In this document: positions 3-25,137 of the stretch, piece by piece | Layout: every line of letters begins with the position of its first letter | Position numbering within the stretch: position 1 is the first letter of the stretch | From: Candidatus Thiobius zoothamnicola | GTDB lineage: Bacteria; Pseudomonadota; Gammaproteobacteria; Chromatiales; Chromatiaceae | Direction of reading: 5' to 3' | DNA length: 64,000 nucleotides | Assembly: GCA_030826945.1 (NCBI GenBank) | Contig: JAPQLC010000023.1 | Location: forward strand, 1-64,000 | Made by a program: the position numbers and the translations under genes | Notes under the pieces: model-generated | Seen by the model: only the letters and a program-made list of their open reading frames with translations | Databases searched by the model: none | Told to the model about the DNA's origin: nothing

Positions 3-386
3 TATGATCCCGCATCGGCACAGTATCTGAGTCCGGATCCGGTTGGGCTGGCCGGAGGGTTGACCCCACAAACCTATGTTCACGATACCAATCAGTGGAT
101 TGATCCGTTGGGATTGTGTCCAAATGGGGTTGAGGAGGATGCCACAAAGGGAGGAGTTGAGCTTACCAAATCCCAACTAAAAAGCATTAAATCTTTAGAA
201 AAACAGATTCAGAAGCATCAACAGAAATTGGACGATTTCAAAGCAAACCCGACTGTTAGACCGGGGATGGAAAATTTGCCGGAAGATGTGATTAAACGAC
301 AGCAGGACGCAAGAATTAAGCATCTTGAAACTGAAATAAATACGTTCAGAAATAACATAGAAAAAATTAAAAACGGGGAGTTATGA
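3..386 (+). CDS. Rhs/YD-repeat protein, C-terminal tip (5' end outside window)
   Basis: The reading frame is open from base 3, so the gene starts upstream. The first residues ([19 protein letters not shown], then WIDPLGL) are the conserved end of an Rhs core, after which the variable toxin tip begins. The tip, about 85 residues after PLGLCPNG, is lysine-rich and helical, with [16 protein letters not shown] and a second helix ending in KNGEL. I recognise this helical tip from other Rhs proteins but do not assign an activity. In the family, the Rhs shell is exported and the tip is released into a neighbouring cell. The TGA stop overlaps the ATG of the next gene (ATGA), so tip and immunity gene are translationally coupled. 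Confidence 0.88.
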
Positions 387-847
387 GGGTGCCTGTAACT
401 TCAAACAAATCTAATGCATTGCTGTTTACTAGTAAACATCGGGTGTTCAATGAATTGTCGTCATTGGATAAAACACCTTCTGCTGTTTTGTTGACCCTAT
501 GGGAGCAATGGGGCTTCTCTGATTTTCAAAAGGTGGAGCCAGTGGTTAAGAGACTGGTTAGCCTTGGCTGTAGGTGTTTTGTGTGTGCTGGTAACTACTC
601 TGAGTCACTTCATGATTTTATTGATGATGTTATTTTGGATATGACACTTGATGATGGTGAAGCTAACACTGCCTTTCTTACAACTTGGCATGATGATGAC
701 ACGGATGATGAGGTGGCCGATTTTTTCCTAAACTCACCAAGTTTATCGAGCGGATTGAGGCTTGCTATTTTCGATGACGATAGCCTTGAGGATCAAAGGT
801 TAAAGAAAACAGTAGCAACTCTTGCTGAGCAGGAAAGCCAAACATGA
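383..847 (+). CDS. Probable immunity protein for the Rhs tip
   Basis: This is a soluble 154-residue protein with no signal peptide. It is strongly acidic in its second half ([17 protein letters not shown]), as expected for a protein that binds the basic Rhs tip encoded just upstream. A TTWHDD-type motif in small proteins next to polymorphic toxins is something I recall, but I cannot place the family with certainty. The start ATG overlaps the Rhs stop by four bases, and its own stop overlaps the next start the same way. The immunity role is inferred from position, charge and coupling, not from an identified domain. Confidence 0.6.
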
Positions 848-1395
848 TTCGTATTTTTCTGCTTTTGTTTTTTAGTGTCCTCAGCCTTCAGTCATGGGGG
901 CAGATGGCTGCTCTTCCTGATGGAGGGTATCTGTATGATCAACCTCATGTTACAGAAGTCGAGCAAAATTACAGTTACGATTCATCTTTCAATTTTACTA
1001 AAATAACAGAATCACGGTCACCATTTCTCCAGCTATCTGAGAGAAAGATCGCCTTGGCTTTTTCTGACGGTTTTGTAGCTGCAAAGGGAGCAAACTTCAC
1101 CCGTAAGCAACTCGATAAGAAATTCAAACATGCCTCAGATTTCGGTATTAATAGCACAAAGAAAAATTCTGAAACACTTGCTCAGTTTGAATCAGCAATA
1201 AAAGATCATCTTGGAGATTCAGCAACAGTACAAAAAGGAACATATGGTTTTTCAAAAGATTCAACAGTTTATTTTAATCCAAATACGAATAATGTTGTTG
1301 TTCTTGATAAGTCGGGTAACTTTTTAACGGGGTTTAAATTAGATCCTACAACACCACAATATCAAAAATACATAAGTGAAGGTTTTTTGAGATGA
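844..1395 (+). CDS. Sec-leader protein with C-terminal colicin D-type tRNase domain
   Basis: The protein has 183 residues. Residues 1-20 form a signal peptide ([20 protein letters not shown]) without a lipobox. Residues 21-80 are a linker that closely resembles the N-terminus of the product at 1655 (YDQP, NFTK, QL, SD-VAA). Residues 85-183 match the colicin D nuclease domain: LDKKFKHASDFGI with the likely catalytic His96 and flanking lysines 93/95, then GTYGF, YFNPNT and GNFLTGFKLD. Colicin D cleaves the anticodon loop of tRNA-Arg. The next gene is a colicin D-type immunity protein, which supports the call. There is no receptor or translocation domain, so delivery must differ from colicin D. 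The start overlaps the preceding stop (ATGA). Confidence 0.82.
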   Translation: MIRIFLLLFFSVLSLQSWGQMAALPDGGYLYDQPHVTEVEQNYSYDSSFNFTKITESRSPFLQLSERKIALAFSDGFVAAKGANFTRKQLDKKFKHASDFGINSTKKNSETLAQFESAIKDHLGDSATVQKGTYGFSKDSTVYFNPNTNNVVVLDKSGNFLTGFKLDPTTPQYQKYISEGFLR

Positions 1396-1658
1396 GTTAT
1401 ACGCTCCTTGAATTTATTCGTTCTTTTGTTGATGGTCGGTTATCAGCTGATGATTTTGTTAACGCTTATATGGAGCTATGGAAAATAGAGCGTGATAGTG
1501 ACAAATTAAGAGTGTATCCAGATGATGTTAGCGAATGCCTTTCGACAACTTTCTGCCTCGCAGATTTGTATTATCCAGAATCAGATAGAGAAGAATATGA
1601 ACTAGATGAAGAAGGATTGAGAAATCAAGTAAGGAAGTTGCTGGATCCATTATCATGA
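1392..1658 (+). CDS. Colicin D-type immunity protein
   Basis: This is an 88-residue acidic protein. Its second half (PESDREEYELDEEGLRNQVR) lines up with the colicin D immunity protein, where the equivalent stretch is PDADRANYEIDDNGL, and total length is nearly the same (87 residues in ImmD). In the family the protein binds the tRNase domain in the cytoplasm and masks its active site. It lies directly downstream of the matching toxin, with a four-base ATGA overlap at both ends, so toxin and antidote are translated together. Confidence 0.85.
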   Translation: MSYTLLEFIRSFVDGRLSADDFVNAYMELWKIERDSDKLRVYPDDVSECLSTTFCLADLYYPESDREEYELDEEGLRNQVRKLLDPLS

Positions 1659-2236
1659 AATCTTTAATTCGTTTGATACTGCTGCTGTTTGTATTGAACT
1701 TTTTTATTGCTTTGGGTTGGAGTCAGGCAATAGCATTGAGTTTCGGTGTCTATCAGTACGATCAGCCTTCATTCGCAGTAGTTGTTGAAAATCATGGTTA
1801 CGACTTACCTCCCAACTTCACCAAAACAGCAGGATCACAATCATCAGCCCTTGATCAATTAGGGAACAAACTCGTCCTTGCATTATCTGATGATTCTGTT
1901 GCTGCCACAAAGAGGGGACAGAAGTTATTACCGGCACCAAAAATACATAAGCATCATTTATTTCCACAAGCACAGAGGGATTGGTTTGCTAAGCGTGGCA
2001 TTGATATTGACCAACATACGATTCCTTTAGAGCGTGGAACCCATTTAGCAGGAACGCATGGTAAAGGTGGTTTTGTCGGGCCTGGCAATGTTCAGTTACC
2101 AGGGAAGTGGAATCAACGATGGAACGACTTTATTAAGAACAACCCAAACGCCACAGCTAAAGAAACATATCAATATGGTGGAAAGCTGATGGATGAGTTT
2201 GGGTTCAATAATCTACCAATAGGGCCTTATAAGTAA
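1655..2236 (+). CDS. Sec-leader protein with SitA6/TIGR02269-like nuclease-type toxin tip
   Basis: The protein has 193 residues. Residues 1-24 form a signal peptide (hydrophobic core ILLLFVLNFFIALGWSQA) with no lipobox cysteine. Residues 25-85 repeat the linker of the gene at 844. Residues 95-193 carry HKHHLFPQ (98-105), a KRGIDID segment, a conserved GTHLAGTHG, and WNQRWNDF, ending in FGFNNLPIGPYK. This pattern matches the C-terminus of the myxobacterial SitA6 polymorphic toxin lipoproteins (TIGR02269/DUF2380), probably a His-based nuclease. The following gene has the double-CXXCG motif of the cognate SitI6 immunity proteins. The start overlaps the previous stop (ATGA). Confidence 0.8.
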   Translation: MKSLIRLILLLFVLNFFIALGWSQAIALSFGVYQYDQPSFAVVVENHGYDLPPNFTKTAGSQSSALDQLGNKLVLALSDDSVAATKRGQKLLPAPKIHKHHLFPQAQRDWFAKRGIDIDQHTIPLERGTHLAGTHGKGGFVGPGNVQLPGKWNQRWNDFIKNNPNATAKETYQYGGKLMDEFGFNNLPIGPYK

Positions 2237-2243
2237 AATTCCC

Positions 2244-2966
2244 ATGAGTTTCTTTGAACTATCGTCTCCAGATTATGAAACGGATGAGGAGTTGGAGGCT
2301 CATAATCCGATCCGACTCAGTTGCGAGTACTTTATACCTTCTGTTCAGTGCGAAATTTGCGGTGCTTGGGCATCGAGTGATCGAATTAGAAAGAATTTCG
2401 AGTCCTCCGTGCTGAAGACATTTAGAGGGATAAAGTTTTTAAGTTTGTCCGATTGGAAGGTCGCAAGCCTGGACTGGGCCTCGGAATTAGGGGTTTCAAC
2501 GGCTCGCATTACTCCGGGTGCTGAATTAGGTAAGCCGCAAGCTGAACTTTTGTCTGTAAATATTGACGATTTTCTGCACCCGATGCCTGGTCAGATTCTT
2601 ATGACTAAGAAAGTCGCCGCTGTTTTAGAGGAAGGCAATGCTAGTGGTGTAGAGCTGTATCCGTTGTCGCCTGTATGGGGCAAAAAAGTAAAAAATGTAG
2701 ATTATGATCCGCCGATATTGTGGGAACTAGTTGTTAAGGGTGTTGGCTGGAGAAAGGGAGTCGATGAGAAATCTATTGAAGCATGCGATCTTTGCGGCAG
2801 AACTATTTTTCCCCAAGCCCCTATATTAATTGATCAAGATAGATGGGATGGTTCAGATATATTTAATATCGATAAGAACCCGAATAGGGTTTTTGTTACG
2901 GACCGAATTGCTGAGTTAATCGAGTCTTATGGGTTCAGGAATTACCGACTAAGATCTGTAGGGTAG
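2244..2966 (+). CDS. SitI6-like double-CXXCG immunity protein
   Basis: This is a 240-residue cytoplasmic protein with two zinc-knuckle-like motifs, CEICG near residue 36 and CDLCG near residue 181. That is the signature of the double-CXXCG family (TIGR02264), which sits beside SitA6 toxins in myxobacteria and acts as immunity. It starts 7 bases after the toxin stop, the only non-overlapping junction of the array. It is larger than the other two immunity proteins. The immunity role follows from family and position. Confidence 0.78.
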   Translation: MSFFELSSPDYETDEELEAHNPIRLSCEYFIPSVQCEICGAWASSDRIRKNFESSVLKTFRGIKFLSLSDWKVASLDWASELGVSTARITPGAELGKPQAELLSVNIDDFLHPMPGQILMTKKVAAVLEEGNASGVELYPLSPVWGKKVKNVDYDPPILWELVVKGVGWRKGVDEKSIEACDLCGRTIFPQAPILIDQDRWDGSDIFNIDKNPNRVFVTDRIAELIESYGFRNYRLRSVG

Positions 2967-2980
2967 ATGATAATCCTACG

Positions 2981-3003
2981 AAGCCCCGCATTGCGGGGCT
3001 TTG
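2981..3003 (+). terminator. Rho-independent terminator of the toxin array
   Basis: A 9-bp GC-rich stem (AAGCCCCGC / GCGGGGCTT) with loop ATT lies 14 bases after the stop of the double-CXXCG gene. It ends the plus-strand array just before the minus-strand toxin-antitoxin genes. The T run is short. Confidence 0.75.
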
Positions 3004-3018
3004 TCGTTGAGAGAGCGG

Positions 3019-3366
3019 TCACCCAATCACCGATTCAATAACCGTCCTCAATCCTTCCTGGTCTTTGTCGCTGAGTTTCCCTAGCGTCTTCCTGACAATC
3101 GTTTTCTCAGCGGTAAAGACAATGGGCTTGATGGCCGAAGGCTTGAGCAATCTGGCACTCTGCCAGTCCTGAATTACCGCTTCCCCAAATCCTGTCTTTG
3201 CCCGTATCTGACTGGTCACCGCCATCAGGATAATGTCAGGCCTCGCCTGGTTGTAGTCGGCGCTGCTGACGACGACCGCCGGGCGTTGCTTGCCGCCACG
3301 CTGATCGGTGAACGGAAAGCGCACCAGCACGATCTGGCCGAATTTATAGTTTGTCGTATTCGGCAT
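3019..3366 (-). CDS. Type II toxin, PemK/MazF family endoribonuclease
   Basis: This is a 115-residue protein with the PemK/MazF fold pattern: GQIVLVRFPFTDQRGGKQRP near the N-terminus (residues 10-29), then ILMAVTSQ, and a C-terminal VIESV helix. Members cleave mRNA and are held inactive by the partner antitoxin. The start lies inside the 3' end of the antitoxin gene (23-base overlap), the usual antitoxin-first arrangement. It probably stabilises the accessory segment. Confidence 0.87.
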   Translation of the reverse strand: MPNTTNYKFGQIVLVRFPFTDQRGGKQRPAVVVSSADYNQARPDIILMAVTSQIRAKTGFGEAVIQDWQSARLLKPSAIKPIVFTAEKTIVRKTLGKLSDKDQEGLRTVIESVIG

Positions 3367-3547
3367 CGTCGGCGTTGTCCCACACGGTGTTCAAGGCCGG
3401 TTCCGAGGCGGCCATGGCTGCCTGGGTCAACTGCCGGTCGCTGTCGCGCTGGCTCAAGAAATCGATAAAGTCTTCCACTTCGTTAATCCGGTTCGGTGTC
3501 AGCGCCTGAAGCTTCTGCACCACCTGTTCGATCTGTTGTGTTTGCAT
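3344..3547 (-). CDS. Antitoxin of the PemK/MazF-type pair
   Basis: The product is a 67-residue protein. The N-terminal half is helical (VVQKLQALTPNRINEVEDFI), a DUF2281-like form typical of antitoxins paired with PemK-type toxins. The C-terminal tail is acidic (VWDNADDAEYDKL) and is the likely toxin-neutralising segment. It overlaps the toxin gene downstream. Its upstream neighbour is an XRE regulator separated by 12 bases, so the three may form one unit. Confidence 0.75.
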   Translation of the reverse strand: MQTQQIEQVVQKLQALTPNRINEVEDFIDFLSQRDSDRQLTQAAMAASEPALNTVWDNADDAEYDKL

Positions 3548-3559
3548 AGTGGTCTCCTG

Positions 3560-3919
3560 TTAGGTTCCGGCGTGATAAGTCTGCCGGGTCTTGGCATCCC
3601 GCATCAGGCTATCGATGACATACAAAATACGCTCCCGGTCTTCCGGCTTGAGCGTTTCCAGTGATTGCCATCGGTTCAGCATGGCCTTGTCCTGAATCCC
3701 GTTCAGGTCGTTATCGCCCACCAGATAATCCAGCGTCACTTCCAGCGCCTCGGCCAGCTTGCGGGCAACACCAATCGACGGCGTGATCTCGCCGCGCTCA
3801 TAGCGGCCAATAATGGCCCCGGATGTTCCCACCTTTTTAGCCAGCGTCGGCTGAGACCAGCCTCGTTGCTTGCGCAAGGCAAGCAATCGATTTGCAAATA
3901 CCTCGTTATCTTCTGCCAT
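3560..3919 (-). CDS. XRE-family helix-turn-helix regulator
   Basis: This is a 119-residue protein. Residues 7-62 form a Cro/CI-type HTH (RLLALRKQRGWSQPTLAKKV, then IGRYERGEITPS). A helical tail with LKPEDRERILYVIDSLM probably mediates dimerisation. I chose the ATG at 3919 because GGTGA lies just upstream; a longer form from 3967 is open but adds an unconserved leader. It is the first gene of a minus-strand unit with the toxin-antitoxin pair and may regulate it or the adjacent primase element. Confidence 0.75.
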   Translation of the reverse strand: MAEDNEVFANRLLALRKQRGWSQPTLAKKVGTSGAIIGRYERGEITPSIGVARKLAEALEVTLDYLVGDNDLNGIQDKAMLNRWQSLETLKPEDRERILYVIDSLMRDAKTRQTYHAGT

Positions 3920-4093
3920 AACCGTCACCAAAGAATCGTTTAAATGCTGTGAAATGCAGTGTTTCATTAAATTTATGTGCTCTTCTGGTAACGGTCAACA
4001 CAGATTAAGTCTTGACGATGCTAACATCTATTAGTACGTTTCGTCATCAATTGGTGATGAAAAACTTTTTTCAATTATTTTGAGGAATCGACC

Positions 4094-4738
4094 ATGGCCC
4101 GCATCCCAGACACAGAACTCGACCGCCTCAAGCGCGAAGTCTCGCTGGTGCGCCTGGTGGAATCCTCCGGCATCGAGCTGAAGAAGCACGGCAAGGACTA
4201 TCTGGGCTTGTGTCCGTTCCATGACGACAAGGAACCGTCCCTGGTCATCAGCCCGGACAAGAATCTGTGGCACTGTCTGGGTGCCTGTGATGAAGGTGGG
4301 GATGTCATCCAGTGGGTGATGAAGTGCCAGAGCGTGAGCTTCCGCCACGCCGTGGAGTTGTTGAAAGATGGCGATGCCGCCTTGTCGGTTCCGGCTTCGC
4401 CGGTCAAACGCAACACCATCGCCAAGCATCCATCTTCTTTAGCTGCGAATCCTGACGACCAGAAACAGCTTGCCACCGTTATCGATTACTACCACGAGAC
4501 CCTGAAGCAAAGCCCGGAAGCCCTGAATTACCTCAAGAGCCGTGGTTTGGATCACCCCGAACTGATCGAGCGCTTCAAACTGGGCTACGCCAACCGCACC
4601 CTGGGCTATCGCTTACCGGAGAAGAACCGCAAGGCCGGGACCGAAGTGCGCGGCCAGTTGCAGAATATCGGCATCCTGAGAAAGAGCGGCCACGAACACT
4701 TCAGCGGCTCACTGGTAATCCCGGTGATCAATCTGTAG
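4094..4738 (+). pseudogene. Truncated CHC2 zinc-finger DNA primase of a mobile element
   Basis: The product is 214 residues. The N-terminus is a primase-type zinc finger (CPFHDDKEPS with Cys/His, then WHCLGACDEGGDVIQWV), followed by the linker that leads to a TOPRIM domain (YYHETLKQSPEALNYLKSRG; LGYANRTLGYRLPEKNRKAG). The frame ends at VIPVINL, where homologues continue into the catalytic TOPRIM domain, so this copy should be inactive. The stop codon lies inside the sequence TGTAGTGGTC, the edge of an insertion-sequence-like remnant. The broken end therefore looks like an insertion or deletion scar. Confidence 0.8.
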
Positions 4739-4806
4739 TGGTCAAGTTTTCTCGCACCCCTGTTAGAGGGTAAATTTTCCTAAGCAGCTTGTAGTGGTCT
4801 AGTTTA
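4734..4806. repeat. Two direct copies of TGTAGTGGTC(a/t)AGTTT, insertion-sequence end remnant
   Basis: TGTAGTGGTCAAGTTT (from 4734) and TGTAGTGGTCTAGTTT (from 4790) differ at one of 16 bases and lie 56 bases apart. The first copy supplies the stop codon that truncates the primase. They resemble transposon termini left after insertion and deletion. No transposase remains between or beside them. The rest of the gap up to argH (to 4951) holds nothing else I recognise. Confidence 0.5.
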
Positions 4807-4951
4807 TGGGGAGTATCATATTCCTGTTTCGTCTATCTGGTTTATCAGACGGATCATATTCATACATTGACTTTTCTAGCCGATCAACGCTGCCTCAATC
4901 CGCTAAAATGAGCTTTTTATCGCACCTGTTTTTCATCAGTCAGAAACTATT

Positions 4952-9295: not shown

Positions 9296-10309
9296 ATGAA
9301 ACAGTTTGTTGTCGTATTATTAATGGGTTTGTTAGGTGTTTCGACGGGATTCGCTGCCGAATTAAATTTGTATTCTTATCGCCAGCCTAAGTTAATCCAA
9401 CCGCTGTTGGAGGCTTTTACGGAAGAGTCCGGGATTAAAGTCAATGTTGTTTACGCCAAGAAAGGTATGCTGGAGCGAATCAAAGCTGAAGGTGTTAATT
9501 CACCAGCTGATTTGGTGCTGGCGGCAGACATTGGTCGTTTGAATGATATGGTTGAAGCAGACGTACTGGCGAAAACCTATTCGCCCATGCTGGAGAGCGC
9601 CATTCCCTCACATTTACGCGATCCGCAAGGTCTTTGGTATGGTCTGACTCAGCGTTCGCGGGTTATCTACGCATCTAAGAATCGGGTATCGGAAGACACG
9701 GAATTAACTTATGAATCTTTGGTTGACCCGCAGTGGCGGGGCCGTATTTGTATGCGTTCCGGTAAGAATGTCTACAATGTTTCGCTGATTGCATCCATGA
9801 TCGCTCACCATGGTGAGGCTGAAGCGAAAACCTGGTTAACAGGCGTCAAGGCTAATTTAGCACGTAGACCGCAAGGCAATGATCGTGCGCAAGCAAAAGC
9901 CGTTTTTGAAGGTCAATGCGATCTTGGCATTGGTAATACCTACTACTATGGCAAAATGGCGACTAATCAGAAGAAACCGGAACAGCAAGCCTGGGCTAAA
10001 TCCATTCGCGTGGTTTTTCCCAACCAGAACGATCGTGGTGCTCATATGAATGTTAGCGGCGCTGGTGTGTTGAAAAGCGCGAAAGACAAAAGGCTTGCGC
10101 TCAAACTCATCGAATTCTTAGCCAGTCCCAAAGCTCAGGCGATATATGCTCACCAGAATTTTGAATATCCGGTGATTCAAGGCGTGGATGCTGACAATGT
10201 GACGGCGGCATTAGGCGCATTTAAAGCGGATAAAATCCGTTTGACGAAAGTCGCCAAATACCGGGCGACAGCCAGTAAACTGGTTGACCAGGTGGCGTTT
10301 GATCAGTGA
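9296..10309 (+). CDS. Periplasmic Fe(III) ABC transporter substrate-binding protein (FbpA/FutA type)
   Basis: The 337-residue protein has a signal peptide ending near FAAE (residues 1-21). The mature protein begins LNLYSYRQPKLIQPLLEAF, typical of the ferric-binding FbpA/FutA/IdiA family. The paired tyrosines in GIGNTYYYGKM (about residue 220) are the expected iron ligands. No permease or ATPase gene follows, so it must serve a transporter encoded elsewhere. A Fur-box-like palindrome lies upstream, which fits iron-repressed expression. Confidence 0.9.
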   Translation: MKQFVVVLLMGLLGVSTGFAAELNLYSYRQPKLIQPLLEAFTEESGIKVNVVYAKKGMLERIKAEGVNSPADLVLAADIGRLNDMVEADVLAKTYSPMLESAIPSHLRDPQGLWYGLTQRSRVIYASKNRVSEDTELTYESLVDPQWRGRICMRSGKNVYNVSLIASMIAHHGEAEAKTWLTGVKANLARRPQGNDRAQAKAVFEGQCDLGIGNTYYYGKMATNQKKPEQQAWAKSIRVVFPNQNDRGAHMNVSGAGVLKSAKDKRLALKLIEFLASPKAQAIYAHQNFEYPVIQGVDADNVTAALGAFKADKIRLTKVAKYRATASKLVDQVAFDQ

Positions 10310-21152: not shown

Positions 21153-21746
21153 TCATTTCGTTTTATCCATCTGGAATATGAGATGGGTCAGGTGGTTTTT
21201 AATGTGGGTTCTGGCTTCTTCATAATCTTTAAATAAAAAGATTATGAAGGCGTCAGCCGTCCGGTTTTTATGCATCGCCAACAGCATGGCTGCTGGGTAG
21301 TTTTTGCTGTATTCAGGATCAACATCGAAAATTGACATGGCGGCCCAGTCTGCGCCGAAAACTTTCTGGGCGTCTTCCGGCATATATTCCCTGGTGGGGG
21401 TGTTGCCGCCAATTGAAAGATTACCGGTCAGTGATTGAAACAGGCGTGAAAAGATATGATTGGGGTCTGGGGTCGCGCCATGCGGGTCATCATAATCAAT
21501 GATCACTCGGTTGATCGGGCGTAAGGCGTAACGGATTTCCAGTTTTCCATCCGCGCTTTTGATGCCTTTCTCGTAAGTCAGGTAAGGGTTATCTACCGGG
21601 GTGACTTCAACAAAGCCTGCAGGAAATCGCCATTGCATGCCGCTTTCTTTAACCAGGGCGGTGAATAAATCTTCACCATAAACCGGTGAAATCAACCAAG
21701 CCAACAGCAGCCCGATGACCCATTTTGCCCGGGTGCGATTTTTCAT
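21153..21746 (-). CDS. Secreted hypothetical protein
   Basis: The 197-residue protein has a clear signal peptide (residues 1-24, WVIGLLLAWLISPVYG) and no cysteine in the mature part. The mature part contains RYALRPINRVIIDYDDPHG and a C-terminal IIFLFKDYEEA. I cannot assign a family. It lies 10 bases downstream of the TPR gene on the same strand and close to the 12-haem cytochrome, so it may belong to the same periplasmic unit. Confidence 0.7.
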   Translation of the reverse strand: MKNRTRAKWVIGLLLAWLISPVYGEDLFTALVKESGMQWRFPAGFVEVTPVDNPYLTYEKGIKSADGKLEIRYALRPINRVIIDYDDPHGATPDPNHIFSRLFQSLTGNLSIGGNTPTREYMPEDAQKVFGADWAAMSIFDVDPEYSKNYPAAMLLAMHKNRTADAFIIFLFKDYEEARTHIKNHLTHLIFQMDKTK

Positions 21747-21756
21747 TGGCGATCCT

Positions 21757-22485
21757 TTATGAGGTACTTTCTGGTGTGGCTTCCGTGGCTTTATCCCGCC
21801 AGTTTTTCAATATGTCCCGAGCGGCTTGTTTGGACTTTTCCTCTTTAGCCAGATTGATGAAGCGCTCCATATCCGCGATGGCTTCGGTTCTATTTCCCAG
21901 GGCGTCATAGACGGCTGATCGATTGAAGTAAGGGCCGGGGGCATGGGGGTTGACGGCGATGCAGCGTTCAAAATCTGCCAAAGCACTTTGATGATTACCT
22001 GCATTCATGTGCAGAAATCCCCGATTGAAACGGGCGGGAACGAAATCCGGATTGAGTTTTATGGCCTGATTCAAATCCGCCAAAGCTTCCCGGACACGAC
22101 CAAATTTCAGATAAGCATGAGATCGATTGACATAAGCCTTGATATCTTTCGGATTCAGGTTGATGGCGGTTTCAAGATCCTGCAATGCCGCCGCGACTTT
22201 ATTTTGCTGTAATAACATGCTGCCGCGTACGGCGTGTATTTCCGCATTTTCAGGGAATTTTGCAGCGGCGATATCCAAGGTGCGCATGGCTTCGCCCTGA
22301 CGGCCTTCGGCCATATGTTGCAACGCCACCATAATACGCTGATCGGGTCGTAATTTATCGTGTGGGTGATGTTGTCCATGTGGCTTGCCTGGCGTGGTTA
22401 ACATGGGAACTTGCGTCGCTTGAAGTGGATGCCCGGCGAGCAATAATGCCAACATCAAAGCACTGAAAAGAGGTGGGTTCGACAA
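21757..22485 (-). CDS. Periplasmic TPR-repeat protein
   Basis: The 242-residue protein carries a signal peptide (ALMLALLLAGHPLQA) and about five tetratricopeptide repeats between residues 50 and 215 (for example AEIHAVRGSMLLQQNKVAAA and AYVNRSHAYLKFGRVREALA). TPR arrays serve protein-protein contacts. I choose TTG at 22485 because AGGAG lies 7 bases upstream; the in-frame ATG at 22509 sits in the T-run of a terminator and has no binding site. It follows the 12-haem cytochrome gene and may help assemble or dock it. Confidence 0.8.
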   Translation of the reverse strand: MSNPPLFSALMLALLLAGHPLQATQVPMLTTPGKPHGQHHPHDKLRPDQRIMVALQHMAEGRQGEAMRTLDIAAAKFPENAEIHAVRGSMLLQQNKVAAALQDLETAINLNPKDIKAYVNRSHAYLKFGRVREALADLNQAIKLNPDFVPARFNRGFLHMNAGNHQSALADFERCIAVNPHAPGPYFNRSAVYDALGNRTEAIADMERFINLAKEEKSKQAARDILKNWRDKATEATPESTS

Positions 22486-22509
22486 TGGGAGGCTCCTGTT
22501 GATGTTCAT

Positions 22510-22539
22510 AAAAAAGGGTCCTCCTCACCAGAGGACCCT
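22510..22539 (-). terminator. Strong terminator between the 12-haem cytochrome and TPR genes
   Basis: On the minus strand, AGGGTCCTC and GAGGACCCT form a perfect 9-bp stem with a 7-base loop, followed by six T residues. It lies 18 bases after the cytochrome stop and immediately before the TPR gene. Some readthrough or a separate promoter must feed the TPR gene. Confidence 0.85.
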
Positions 22540-22556
22540 ACATCAGTATAAGGATG

Positions 22557-24953
22557 TCAGTTATTCACAATAGGTGAGTTATTTTGGCTTCGCTGATCAG
22601 CATATGCCTTGAACATTTTGTTCATTAGCTCAATATGCTGTGAGTCATTCAACTGGCCTTTGGTCGCTACTTTATCCCACAGCTCTGTATTGGACATTTC
22701 ACGATGGCAGCCCATGCATAACCCGGTGCGTTCCATGGCGTCGCGCATTTCCTTCGGTAGTGCGCGGGATAATGGCCAGTGAGTGCCTACCGTCTGGGTT
22801 TGCTGGCCGTCTTTGATAATGGTGGACCAGTCGTAATCCAGATCGGCGATCTTGGGGATTTGGATCTGATGCCGACCAGGGATTACCTGACCGGTTTTCT
22901 GATCAATCAAATCCTCAACGATATCGCGCGGATAACCGGTCTGGAATACGCCGCCGCTGATCCCGTAGCCAAGGGCTTTGGGGTTATTGTGGCAGGATTC
23001 ACAGGTACGCGCCTTGCGTTGCGCCGAGTGCGGCTGCACTGGAGCCATGTCAATGGCATCCGGCACCCGGGTTTGTCCTAATGCCTTTTGCTCATCGTAA
23101 GATTTACCAAGTTCGTTCAGCGCCACTGTCTGGCCATCACGCCCAATGACGGTATAGACAATCTGGCAACCTGGCATTAATGGAGTCACCCGGCCTTCGC
23201 CATTGATGCCAAGCACCGGTTCCTCCCAGCGTAAGTAGGAGCGTGTCTCAAACACCTTGCCCGGGCTTTTGATGCCGCTGCTGCCAATTTTGGATTCGGC
23301 TGTGGAGCCATCGGGGAATTTCTGATTACCCGAAGCCACCCAGTCGGTATCCTGATAGGGATTGCCTTTGGCGTCTTTGCCGTAATTCACCTGAACATGG
23401 CAGCCATAACACTGGGGCACCCAGGAAGCGTGACAGGCGTAGCACTCCAGAGATTCATTGTGTTTTTCCACTTGGCTCATGGCGACCTTGGCGTCCGGGC
23501 TTTTCCAGCTATCCGTGATAGCCAGATTTTTCAGCACTGGCACCTCAAAGTCATTACCGGTGGCCGAGTGCATAATGACTTTATCGCCATGTTTGACCAC
23601 ATTGCCAAAGGCGTTGCCGCGCGCGGTTTTGAGATAACCATCGCCTTGTTCATACACAGTGGCGAAAGCGGCGGTTTCATTCATCAGTTCATTGGTCAGA
23701 CCGCGCGGCGTTTCTTCCAGTTGCTGGGCGAATTCTTCTGAATAACCAAGCGGTAACTCCCAAGGGAATTTGTCAGGCGTGCCGTGGCAGTCCTGGCATT
23801 CAACTTCAACCTGAGCCAGTGTGGTGCCGAAGATATTGCCGTCGCCATGCATATCAATGGAGGTATGGCAATCCTGGCAGAGCATGCCGCCTTTGGGGTT
23901 TTCCGGGCGGGATTTGATTTGATGATGCAAATCATCAGAAATGAACAGATAACGTTTGGTATGCAATTTGGGCTGCGTATTCCCTTGCTCATTGTAAGGT
24001 GAGCCATAGGGGAATTCCATCAGGCCCTGATAAGTGACACCGATGCGTTTGCCCCGGTTGTGGCAGGAGTTACAGGTTTCGACTGGGATGCCCGAATATT
24101 CCACGTCGCCATGCTTGATCTTGGTTTTCCGGGTCGCCTGGATTTTATGAATCAGCACATGGCCGCGTTCATTTTTATCAATGGATTTGTCCTGCCCTTC
24201 GTAGAAGCCTTCATTGCCATAAGGCATATGGCAGGAGGAGCAGCCCTGGCCGCGATAATCGCCTCGCTTCTCACGTCCGTTGACAGCCACATGGCAGCGC
24301 TGACATTGCTGGCGTGAATAGGTGAAGCCAGCGAGCTTGGGATCCTGCTCGATCTCTTCCACCGAAGGTTGCGGCACCATTTTCAATTCTGTGGGAAACT
24401 GTTCTTTATGTGCCGCTATCATGGCCTGCATATAAGTTTTGTATTCGGCGGAGCCGACTTGAGGGATTGGGCCATCCGTATCTTTCACATCATAATTGCC
24501 CCATGGCACCTGATAATTCTGCACTTCCGGAATGCCCCAGGTATGCAGGTTGCCTTGCAGCTTACCGGCTTCTGTATTCATCAATGAGCGTTCTAAACGG
24601 TAGCTATAACCGCTGTGACAACCTGATTGTCCGCAACTGTTCTCGGCGACCCAAATGGAGCCGGGATCCGGGTAGAAGAGTTGTGGCCCGTTTTCCTTCA
24701 CCAAACCCTCAGGCGAACCCTGATGGGCGGCCTCAAGGGTTTGACCGGCAGGGTTGCCGCCGTGGCAAATCACGCAACCTTCTGGATCGCCATGCATTGC
24801 GCCCTTGGCTTTGATAATCTGCATCATGGCACTTTGTTCATCACGGATGGAGGCGATGCCATCATGGCAGCTTAGACATCCTTCTGCAGTGATGGCATGA
24901 CCGCTGAAAAGCCAGCTGATCGCCAGCATGCTTAATAAGATCAGGCGTTTCAT
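22557..24953 (-). CDS. Periplasmic multihaem cytochrome c with 12 haem-binding motifs
   Basis: The 798-residue protein has a signal peptide (MKRLILLSMLAISWLFSGHA). Eleven CXXCH sites occur in order: CLSCH, CVICH, CQRCH, CSSCH, CNSCH, CQDCH twice, CYACH, CYGCH, CESCH and CMGCH. One longer CX4CH (CGQSGCH) follows the second, giving 12 candidate haems. ATG 24953 starts the signal peptide. It should transfer electrons in the periplasm. I cannot say whether it is catalytic or a conduit, and I do not recognise a named family. The TPR and secreted hypothetical genes downstream are likely partners. Confidence 0.9.
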   Translation of the reverse strand: MKRLILLSMLAISWLFSGHAITAEGCLSCHDGIASIRDEQSAMMQIIKAKGAMHGDPEGCVICHGGNPAGQTLEAAHQGSPEGLVKENGPQLFYPDPGSIWVAENSCGQSGCHSGYSYRLERSLMNTEAGKLQGNLHTWGIPEVQNYQVPWGNYDVKDTDGPIPQVGSAEYKTYMQAMIAAHKEQFPTELKMVPQPSVEEIEQDPKLAGFTYSRQQCQRCHVAVNGREKRGDYRGQGCSSCHMPYGNEGFYEGQDKSIDKNERGHVLIHKIQATRKTKIKHGDVEYSGIPVETCNSCHNRGKRIGVTYQGLMEFPYGSPYNEQGNTQPKLHTKRYLFISDDLHHQIKSRPENPKGGMLCQDCHTSIDMHGDGNIFGTTLAQVEVECQDCHGTPDKFPWELPLGYSEEFAQQLEETPRGLTNELMNETAAFATVYEQGDGYLKTARGNAFGNVVKHGDKVIMHSATGNDFEVPVLKNLAITDSWKSPDAKVAMSQVEKHNESLECYACHASWVPQCYGCHVQVNYGKDAKGNPYQDTDWVASGNQKFPDGSTAESKIGSSGIKSPGKVFETRSYLRWEEPVLGINGEGRVTPLMPGCQIVYTVIGRDGQTVALNELGKSYDEQKALGQTRVPDAIDMAPVQPHSAQRKARTCESCHNNPKALGYGISGGVFQTGYPRDIVEDLIDQKTGQVIPGRHQIQIPKIADLDYDWSTIIKDGQQTQTVGTHWPLSRALPKEMRDAMERTGLCMGCHREMSNTELWDKVATKGQLNDSQHIELMNKMFKAYADQRSQNNSPIVNN

Positions 24954-25137
24954 TGGAATACTCTTCAAAATAGATGCTGTAACGGAAATCATACGTATGG
25001 GCCGTTATATATTGTTCGCTTTGATCGAACCATTTGCTTGCGGGCATGGGGCATTGATATTGCCGCAAGTTTTACAATTGTAGTCTTATTTTCGAGTTTC
25101 ACTCTCCGCAATTTGTTTAGCGGGCCGCTTTATTCCT

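Follow-up and report, generated by a model that had tools for sequence, protein, structure and literature searches.

Three genes on one strand of contig JAPQLC010000023.1 of Candidatus Thiobius zoothamnicola (assembly GCA_030826945.1), within the 64,000-nucleotide stretch analysed here and called the window below, encode a secreted 12-haem cytochrome c, a secreted tetratricopeptide repeat (TPR) protein and a further secreted protein (Table 1). A preliminary description of this DNA had reported a 798-residue cytochrome with eleven CXXCH motifs and one CX4CH motif and, downstream of it in the same orientation, a TPR gene and a secreted gene; all of this was confirmed in the sequence, and the N-terminus of the cytochrome contains a signal-peptide-like stretch. 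From the first ATG the cytochrome open reading frame (ORF) covers 22557-24992(-) and encodes 811 residues; the ATG at 24953 gives the form of 798 residues. The TTG at 22485, with AGGAG on its 5' side, may be the true start of the TPR gene. The neighbours of the cytochrome gene in the window are these two genes and an ORF which reads as ispD-like.

Table 1. Coordinates of the three genes and of the features within and between them (positions of the window)
Feature	Position	Strand	Basis
12-haem secreted cytochrome c, 798 residues	22557..24953	-	ORF reading; longer ORF to 24992
Haem 3 site CGQSGCH (CX4CH)	24615..24635	-	Sequence; spacer of 4 in 45/81 rows
MtrC/MtrF-like pentahaem domain (haems 4-8)	23778..24317	-	PF22113, 49.5 bits, cut-off 30
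P-G-C-Q with invariant non-haem Cys, residue 596 of 798	23163..23174	-	81/81 rows; also ExtM and two ExtM-like proteins
Intrinsic-terminator-like hairpin and T-run between cytochrome and TPR genes	22515..22539	-	RNA fold z -2.81 (region)
Secreted TPR protein, 250 residues; possible TTG start 22485	21757..22509	-	Pfam TPR families
Secreted protein, predicted PsbP/Mog1-like fold, 197 residues	21153..21746	-	AlphaFold pLDDT 90.4 and fold matches

A conserved three-gene module

The scan of genome contigs confirmed 460 relatives of the cytochrome, of which the best 80 were kept as loci and aligned with the window protein (81 rows). By profile score, 63 loci and the window fall into group A and the remaining 17 loci into group B. 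In a tree built by a quick method, group A comprises a 59-row branch (gammaproteobacteria, some alphaproteobacteria, Planctomycetota, Bacteroidota, one Dadabacterium and one Poribacterium) and, apart from it, 5 Deinococcota rows on a branch whose position is tentative. Group B comes out as two branches, one of 6 Desulfobacterota rows and one of 11 rows, alphaproteobacterial except for one Thiotrichaceae row. Since the two branches of group B do not join and the Deinococcota stand apart, A and B are used as labels rather than as proven clades. Transfer of the cytochrome between phyla is likely, several of the records being bins of metagenome-assembled genomes. The cytochrome is detected at E up to 1e-60 in 21 of 369 gammaproteobacterial genomes; among 55 genomes searched as relatives of the host, its own included, nine give a match, and besides its own only G008, G023 and G029 do so at 75-83% identity. 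Plasmid records gave only weak matches, at 21% coverage and from sphingomonads; in one case the protein matched was a large multihaem one.

The partner genes were counted in loci with at least 1.6 kb downstream of the cytochrome gene, which leaves out 11 of the 63 group A loci and 1 of the 17 in group B. Both partners were found in 46 of the 52 group A loci counted, in the same order and on the same strand, so that the survey of co-occurrence proposed in the preliminary description came out in favour of the association. The secreted gene is present in 47 of these loci and the TPR gene in 50, a figure that is one too low since L061, scored as lacking TPR, has such a gene at 9490-10212, right after its cytochrome. 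The secreted gene is missing in the Thiosymbion loci L027 (which is without TPR too) and L035 and in the Bacteroidota loci L063, L066 and L070. In group B, a TPR or secreted gene was found in 0 of the 16 loci checked.

The same association is seen at the level of whole genomes. The secreted protein occurs in 11 of the 21 cytochrome-positive gammaproteobacterial genomes and in 1 of the 348 negative ones, and each of the eight genomes in which a single cytochrome match exceeds 1,250 bits carries it. Identity matrices of the three proteins correlate with each other (r 0.69, 0.72 and 0.83; 0 of 999 permutations as high in each case), with the helpers evolving faster (mean identity 0.38-0.39, versus 0.73-0.74 for the cytochrome). 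The three genes are a real conserved module. It is exceedingly improbable that the TPR and secreted genes stand beside an unrelated cytochrome by coincidence: the strong terminator-like hairpin that the window has between its cytochrome and TPR genes would agree with this, but the locus and genome counts given above stand against it and rule it out for group A. The one cytochrome-negative genome with the secreted, PsbP-fold protein is G321 (G321:C178:10897-11313), which may represent either an assembly gap or a lone helper.

Terminator-like elements with stems of 8 or more were sought in the 58 loci that have a TPR gene. They occur at the junction of the cytochrome and TPR genes in 16 of these loci (mean 0.14 in 50 rounds of single-letter shuffles), in 0 of 58 inside the cytochrome gene and in 0 of 50 at the junction of the TPR and secreted genes, which overlap or nearly touch in most loci. 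In group B, 5 of the 17 loci likewise have such an element 3' of the cytochrome, perhaps as an ordinary terminator. This pattern would fit the production of more cytochrome than helpers.

Over cut-off, the TPR protein matches generic TPR families of Pfam only; against the model of the CcmH/CycH TPR chaperone (PF23914) the window protein scores 15.4 bits, with 42 needed. A lipobox-like pattern is found in 19 of 58 TPR relatives, and the window protein itself looks secreted and not lipid-anchored. For the other secreted protein, AlphaFold gives a confident model (predicted local distance difference test, pLDDT, 90.4; predicted template modelling score, pTM, 0.83), which matches PsbP, PsbP-like chains, Mog1 and the mycobacterial MTC28/LpqN. 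Foldseek relates it to a chain of the NDH-PSI supercomplex (E 3.3e-5) and to CyanoP (E 4.0e-4), and VIA yields Z up to 11.8 with a root mean square deviation of 3.1 over 140 residues. The PsbP-like fold is a prediction of the model and has no counterpart in sequence: the window protein has no Pfam match, PsbP included, the profile of the family has no sequence match in PDB, and a search of 50 members against Pfam at E up to 0.01 returned only FUSC and DUF3558, in one member each. The family also differs in invariant residues of its own (Asp87, His89, Trp134, His159 and Asp165, as well as Pro93 and Pro95, in 50 rows). PsbP proteins assist photosystem II, and an assembly role of the PsbP-fold secreted protein is therefore a reasonable suggestion by analogy.

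The cytochrome and its relation to ExtM

Twelve haem motifs are present in 75 of the 81 rows, and the other six rows have 9 to 11. The spacer at haem 3 consists of 4 residues in 45 rows, 2 in 30 and 5 in three, three rows being truncated there; because the spacer of 4 recurs so often, the CX4CH motif of the window is not a sequencing slip. Six rows, those of Desulfobacterota, carry the spacer of 4 at haem 1 instead of haem 3. Eleven histidines outside the motifs are invariant in all rows (His77, one of them, being counted over the rows not truncated there), and His137 and His265 are invariant in group A only (64/64 rows, window included). A single non-haem cysteine, Cys596, is retained in all of the 81 rows and lies inside the most conserved haem-free segment (residues 568-598), which is 63% invariant versus 23% overall. 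The set of eleven fully invariant outer histidines and one invariant cysteine for twelve haems hints at one special haem. Judged from its haems, a redox role of the cytochrome is near certain.

According to the preliminary description, the cytochrome does not fit a named family; this has to be corrected, since ExtM (GSU2935 of the Geobacter extHIJKLMNOPQS cluster) is its distant relative over nearly the full length. The NCBIfam model of ExtM (NF040943) is covered colinearly, in three pieces, by the window cytochrome at E 1.9e-59 and 201.6 bits, which is below the curated cut-off of 800, and four relatives of the window protein score 213.7-238.6 bits. Genome G408 contains a true ExtM (1,103 bits, L123), beside which ExtN-like and Rieske-like ORFs can be read, and on another contig a member of the window family, so that the two are paralogues in one genome. 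BLASTP of the window cytochrome against this ExtM gives 174 bits, E 3e-50 and 25% identity over 650 columns. An alignment of ten rows, among them ExtM and two ExtM-like proteins, shows no variation in any haem Cys or His column; the 12 motifs are colinear, and P594-G595-C596-Q597 is invariant in 10 of 10 rows, ExtM included. The window cytochrome is thus a long, divergent relative of ExtM within the ExtM superfamily.

The differences from ExtM are also evident. ExtM has about 600 residues and the window cytochrome about 800, and the ext partners (ExtKL, ExtN, the Rieske protein ExtO and the cytochrome b ExtP) were not found beside the window gene, where the TPR and PsbP-fold partners stand instead. 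According to PMC5877670, ExtM is a 12-haem protein of 68.3 kDa, and the porin ExtI, which the ext cluster encodes, ties this cluster to the reduction of selenite and tellurite. A third ExtM-like family, of about 600 residues and also with P-G-C-Q, was noticed in Desulfobacterota (L128 697-2499 and L129 640-2487), where an ORF reading as NAD synthetase-like adjoins.

Among the other multihaem cytochromes, the decahaem MtrC/OmcA proteins share with the window cytochrome one pentahaem domain (PF22113, MtrC/MtrF domain II/IV), which matches in two stretches, the best at residues 226-405 of the 811-residue form. They differ in the number of haems, and TIGR03507, the model of the OmcA/MtrC family, gives 18.4 bits with 209.3 needed. 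No relatives with solved structure were found for the cytochrome by sequence.

Neighbouring genes and genome context

A Porin_5-type beta-barrel gene adjoins the cytochrome in 13 of the 63 group A loci, with Pfam confirmation for L020, L047, L050, L063 and L083. This arrangement raises the possibility that the module belongs to an outer-membrane conduit, in which the cytochrome would dock on a porin and exchange electrons with acceptors, donors or partners outside the cell. The presence of ExtI in the ext cluster as described above and the MtrC/MtrF-like pentahaem domain agree with such a conduit; we consider it quite unlikely, however, as a Porin_5 cluster member was found neither near the window genes nor, within flanks of varying length, in the remaining 50 loci of group A and the 17 of group B, and the OmcA/MtrC score is far too low.

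In five Desulfobacterota loci of group B, DsrO-like and DsrP-like genes lie directly upstream of the cytochrome, and in the sixth (L080), which is cut, the end of the NrfD gene alone remains. By curated models, the DsrP of L090 scores 378.4 bits, over its cut-off of 350, and the DsrO of L088 171.3, under 200. According to PMC8076601, quinone-linked complexes, MccACD and Nhc among them, combine a multihaem cytochrome with iron-sulfur (FeS) and NrfD subunits. The Desulfobacterota loci share this gene content with MccACD, Nrf, Nhc and Qrc, and differ from them by the 12 haems and the DsrO/DsrP-like membrane part; beside the window gene FeS and NrfD genes were not found.

Genes of the Ccm system (CcmF or CcmI clusters) adjoin the cytochrome in 18 of the 80 loci, 8 in group A and 10 in group B, confirmed by Pfam at L040, L047, L064 and L078. 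These loci belong to alphaproteobacteria, gammaproteobacteria and Thermaceae, and their arrangements differ. ResB or CcsA domains are found by Pfam downstream in L066 and L070.

Several further neighbours were observed. A response-regulator cluster member, possibly a regulator of the module, lies directly upstream on the same strand in L013, L016, L023 (sigma-54 type by Pfam), L040 and L055, and in four of these five loci it is preceded by a large ORF of one further cluster. In several alphaproteobacterial loci of group B the gene after the cytochrome is a small secreted ORF with the Rap1a domain (PF18602), for instance L081 10328-10708, and in Desulfuromusa, also of group B, the cytochrome is followed by a small membrane-like ORF with no Pfam match (L090 10350-10892, likewise L077 and L088). 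In the Flavobacteriales metagenome-assembled genome L063, a nitrous oxide reductase gene with PF18764 and cupredoxin domains (146-2593 (-)) is situated within about 8 kb upstream of the cytochrome, as is another ORF that resembles NosZ more weakly (2597-4846 (-)).

The host genome, of 2.38 Mb, has DsrA and SoxB both over their curated cut-offs, which fits a sulfur-oxidising lithotroph, and we infer that the host is a sulfur oxidiser; NarG and NosZ gave no match in it at the thresholds used. Genome-level associations were analysed in 80 gammaproteobacterial genomes, namely the 21 positive for the cytochrome and 59 of the 348 negatives, taken by handle number. DsrA is over cut-off in 14 of 21 positive versus 16 of 59 negative genomes (Fisher p 0.003) and SoxB in 14 of 21 versus 21 of 59 (p 0.02), these p values being optimistic since the sampled genomes are related. 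Two associations with nitrogen metabolism were considered and rejected: narG is over cut-off in 3 of 21 positive and 9 of 59 negative genomes, so no link to denitrification is seen, and an exclusion of nosZ, found in 0 of 21 versus 9 of 59 (p 0.10; 0.019 post hoc among DsrA-positive genomes), does not agree with its presence in 8 of 25 other carriers.

Possible role of the module

We suggest, with a probability of roughly 0.45, that the cytochrome is a periplasmic dodecahaem oxidoreductase of the ExtM superfamily, possibly acting on sulfur or selenium oxyanions or polysulfide, with two dedicated assembly or docking factors. Its haem chain would gather or deliver several electrons, and the Cys596 region would form the catalytic end, where the sulfur (or selenium) oxyanion or polysulfide may be converted. 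In Desulfobacterota the chain is probably fed by the DsrO/DsrP-like quinol module, and in group A, window included, it may exchange electrons with soluble periplasmic carriers. The TPR and PsbP-fold proteins, encoded by usually overlapping genes which in some loci lie behind a terminator, would serve as dedicated assembly or docking factors for the cytochrome. A catalytic role of the Cys596 region and helper roles of the TPR and PsbP-fold proteins are what we consider most likely. Besides the homology with ExtM and the invariant Cys596, the Ccm, ResB or CcsA genes near the cytochrome, the co-inheritance of the partners, the PsbP/Mog1 fold and the terminators between cytochrome and TPR genes speak for this reading. 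For the substrate class we can only guess from ExtM, the association with DsrA and the MccACD-like layout in Desulfobacterota; this layout favours a reductase.

Several observations weigh against such an enzyme. Seven of the 21 cytochrome-positive gammaproteobacterial genomes have no DsrA over cut-off and seven are without SoxB, so sulfur oxidation is not the sole setting, and the genomes compared are not phylogenetically independent. Thus, of the lithotroph setting proposed in the preliminary description, the part concerning the host agrees with its DsrA and SoxB, but the cytochrome itself is not limited to sulfur lithotrophs, having relatives in Bacteroidota, Planctomycetota and Desulfuromusa as well. 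The module sits in many unrelated neighbourhoods, which provide little functional context. The AlphaFold model of the cytochrome is moderate (pLDDT 74.4, pTM 0.78) and matches no solved structure by fold, although one may still exist. Finally, in view of the eleven invariant non-motif histidines most haems look bis-His, and the cytochrome could be a mere wire.

The last point leads to a non-catalytic periplasmic carrier or capacitor, comparable to the Desulfovibrio cytochrome Nhc, through which other enzymes would be connected to the quinone pool. Eleven such histidines for 12 haems agree with it, as do the FeS and NrfD genes of Desulfobacterota, beside which no other obvious catalytic subunit accompanies the cytochrome. 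We nevertheless regard a carrier as unlikely, for the dense invariance of the haem-free region and the cysteine retained in ExtM exceed the needs of a wire. Returning to the proposed oxidoreductase, one can extend it to an uncharacterised class of dodecahaem, cysteine-dependent sulfur/selenium oxyanion oxidoreductases that would be spread over several bacterial phyla in marine sediments and at vents, with their own assembly pair of TPR and PsbP-fold proteins and with expression trimmed by a recurrent terminator; in this full form the proposal is rather unlikely.

We recognised no description of this three-gene module in the literature searched, subscription papers being outside its scope. The analysis gives a name to a widespread, previously unassigned redox module of sulfur-cycle bacteria and symbionts and ties it to ExtM, whose own role is unproven, while singling out one cysteine and two companion genes as testable. 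Should the PsbP-fold protein prove to be an assembly factor, the reach of this photosystem II fold would extend to c-type cytochromes.

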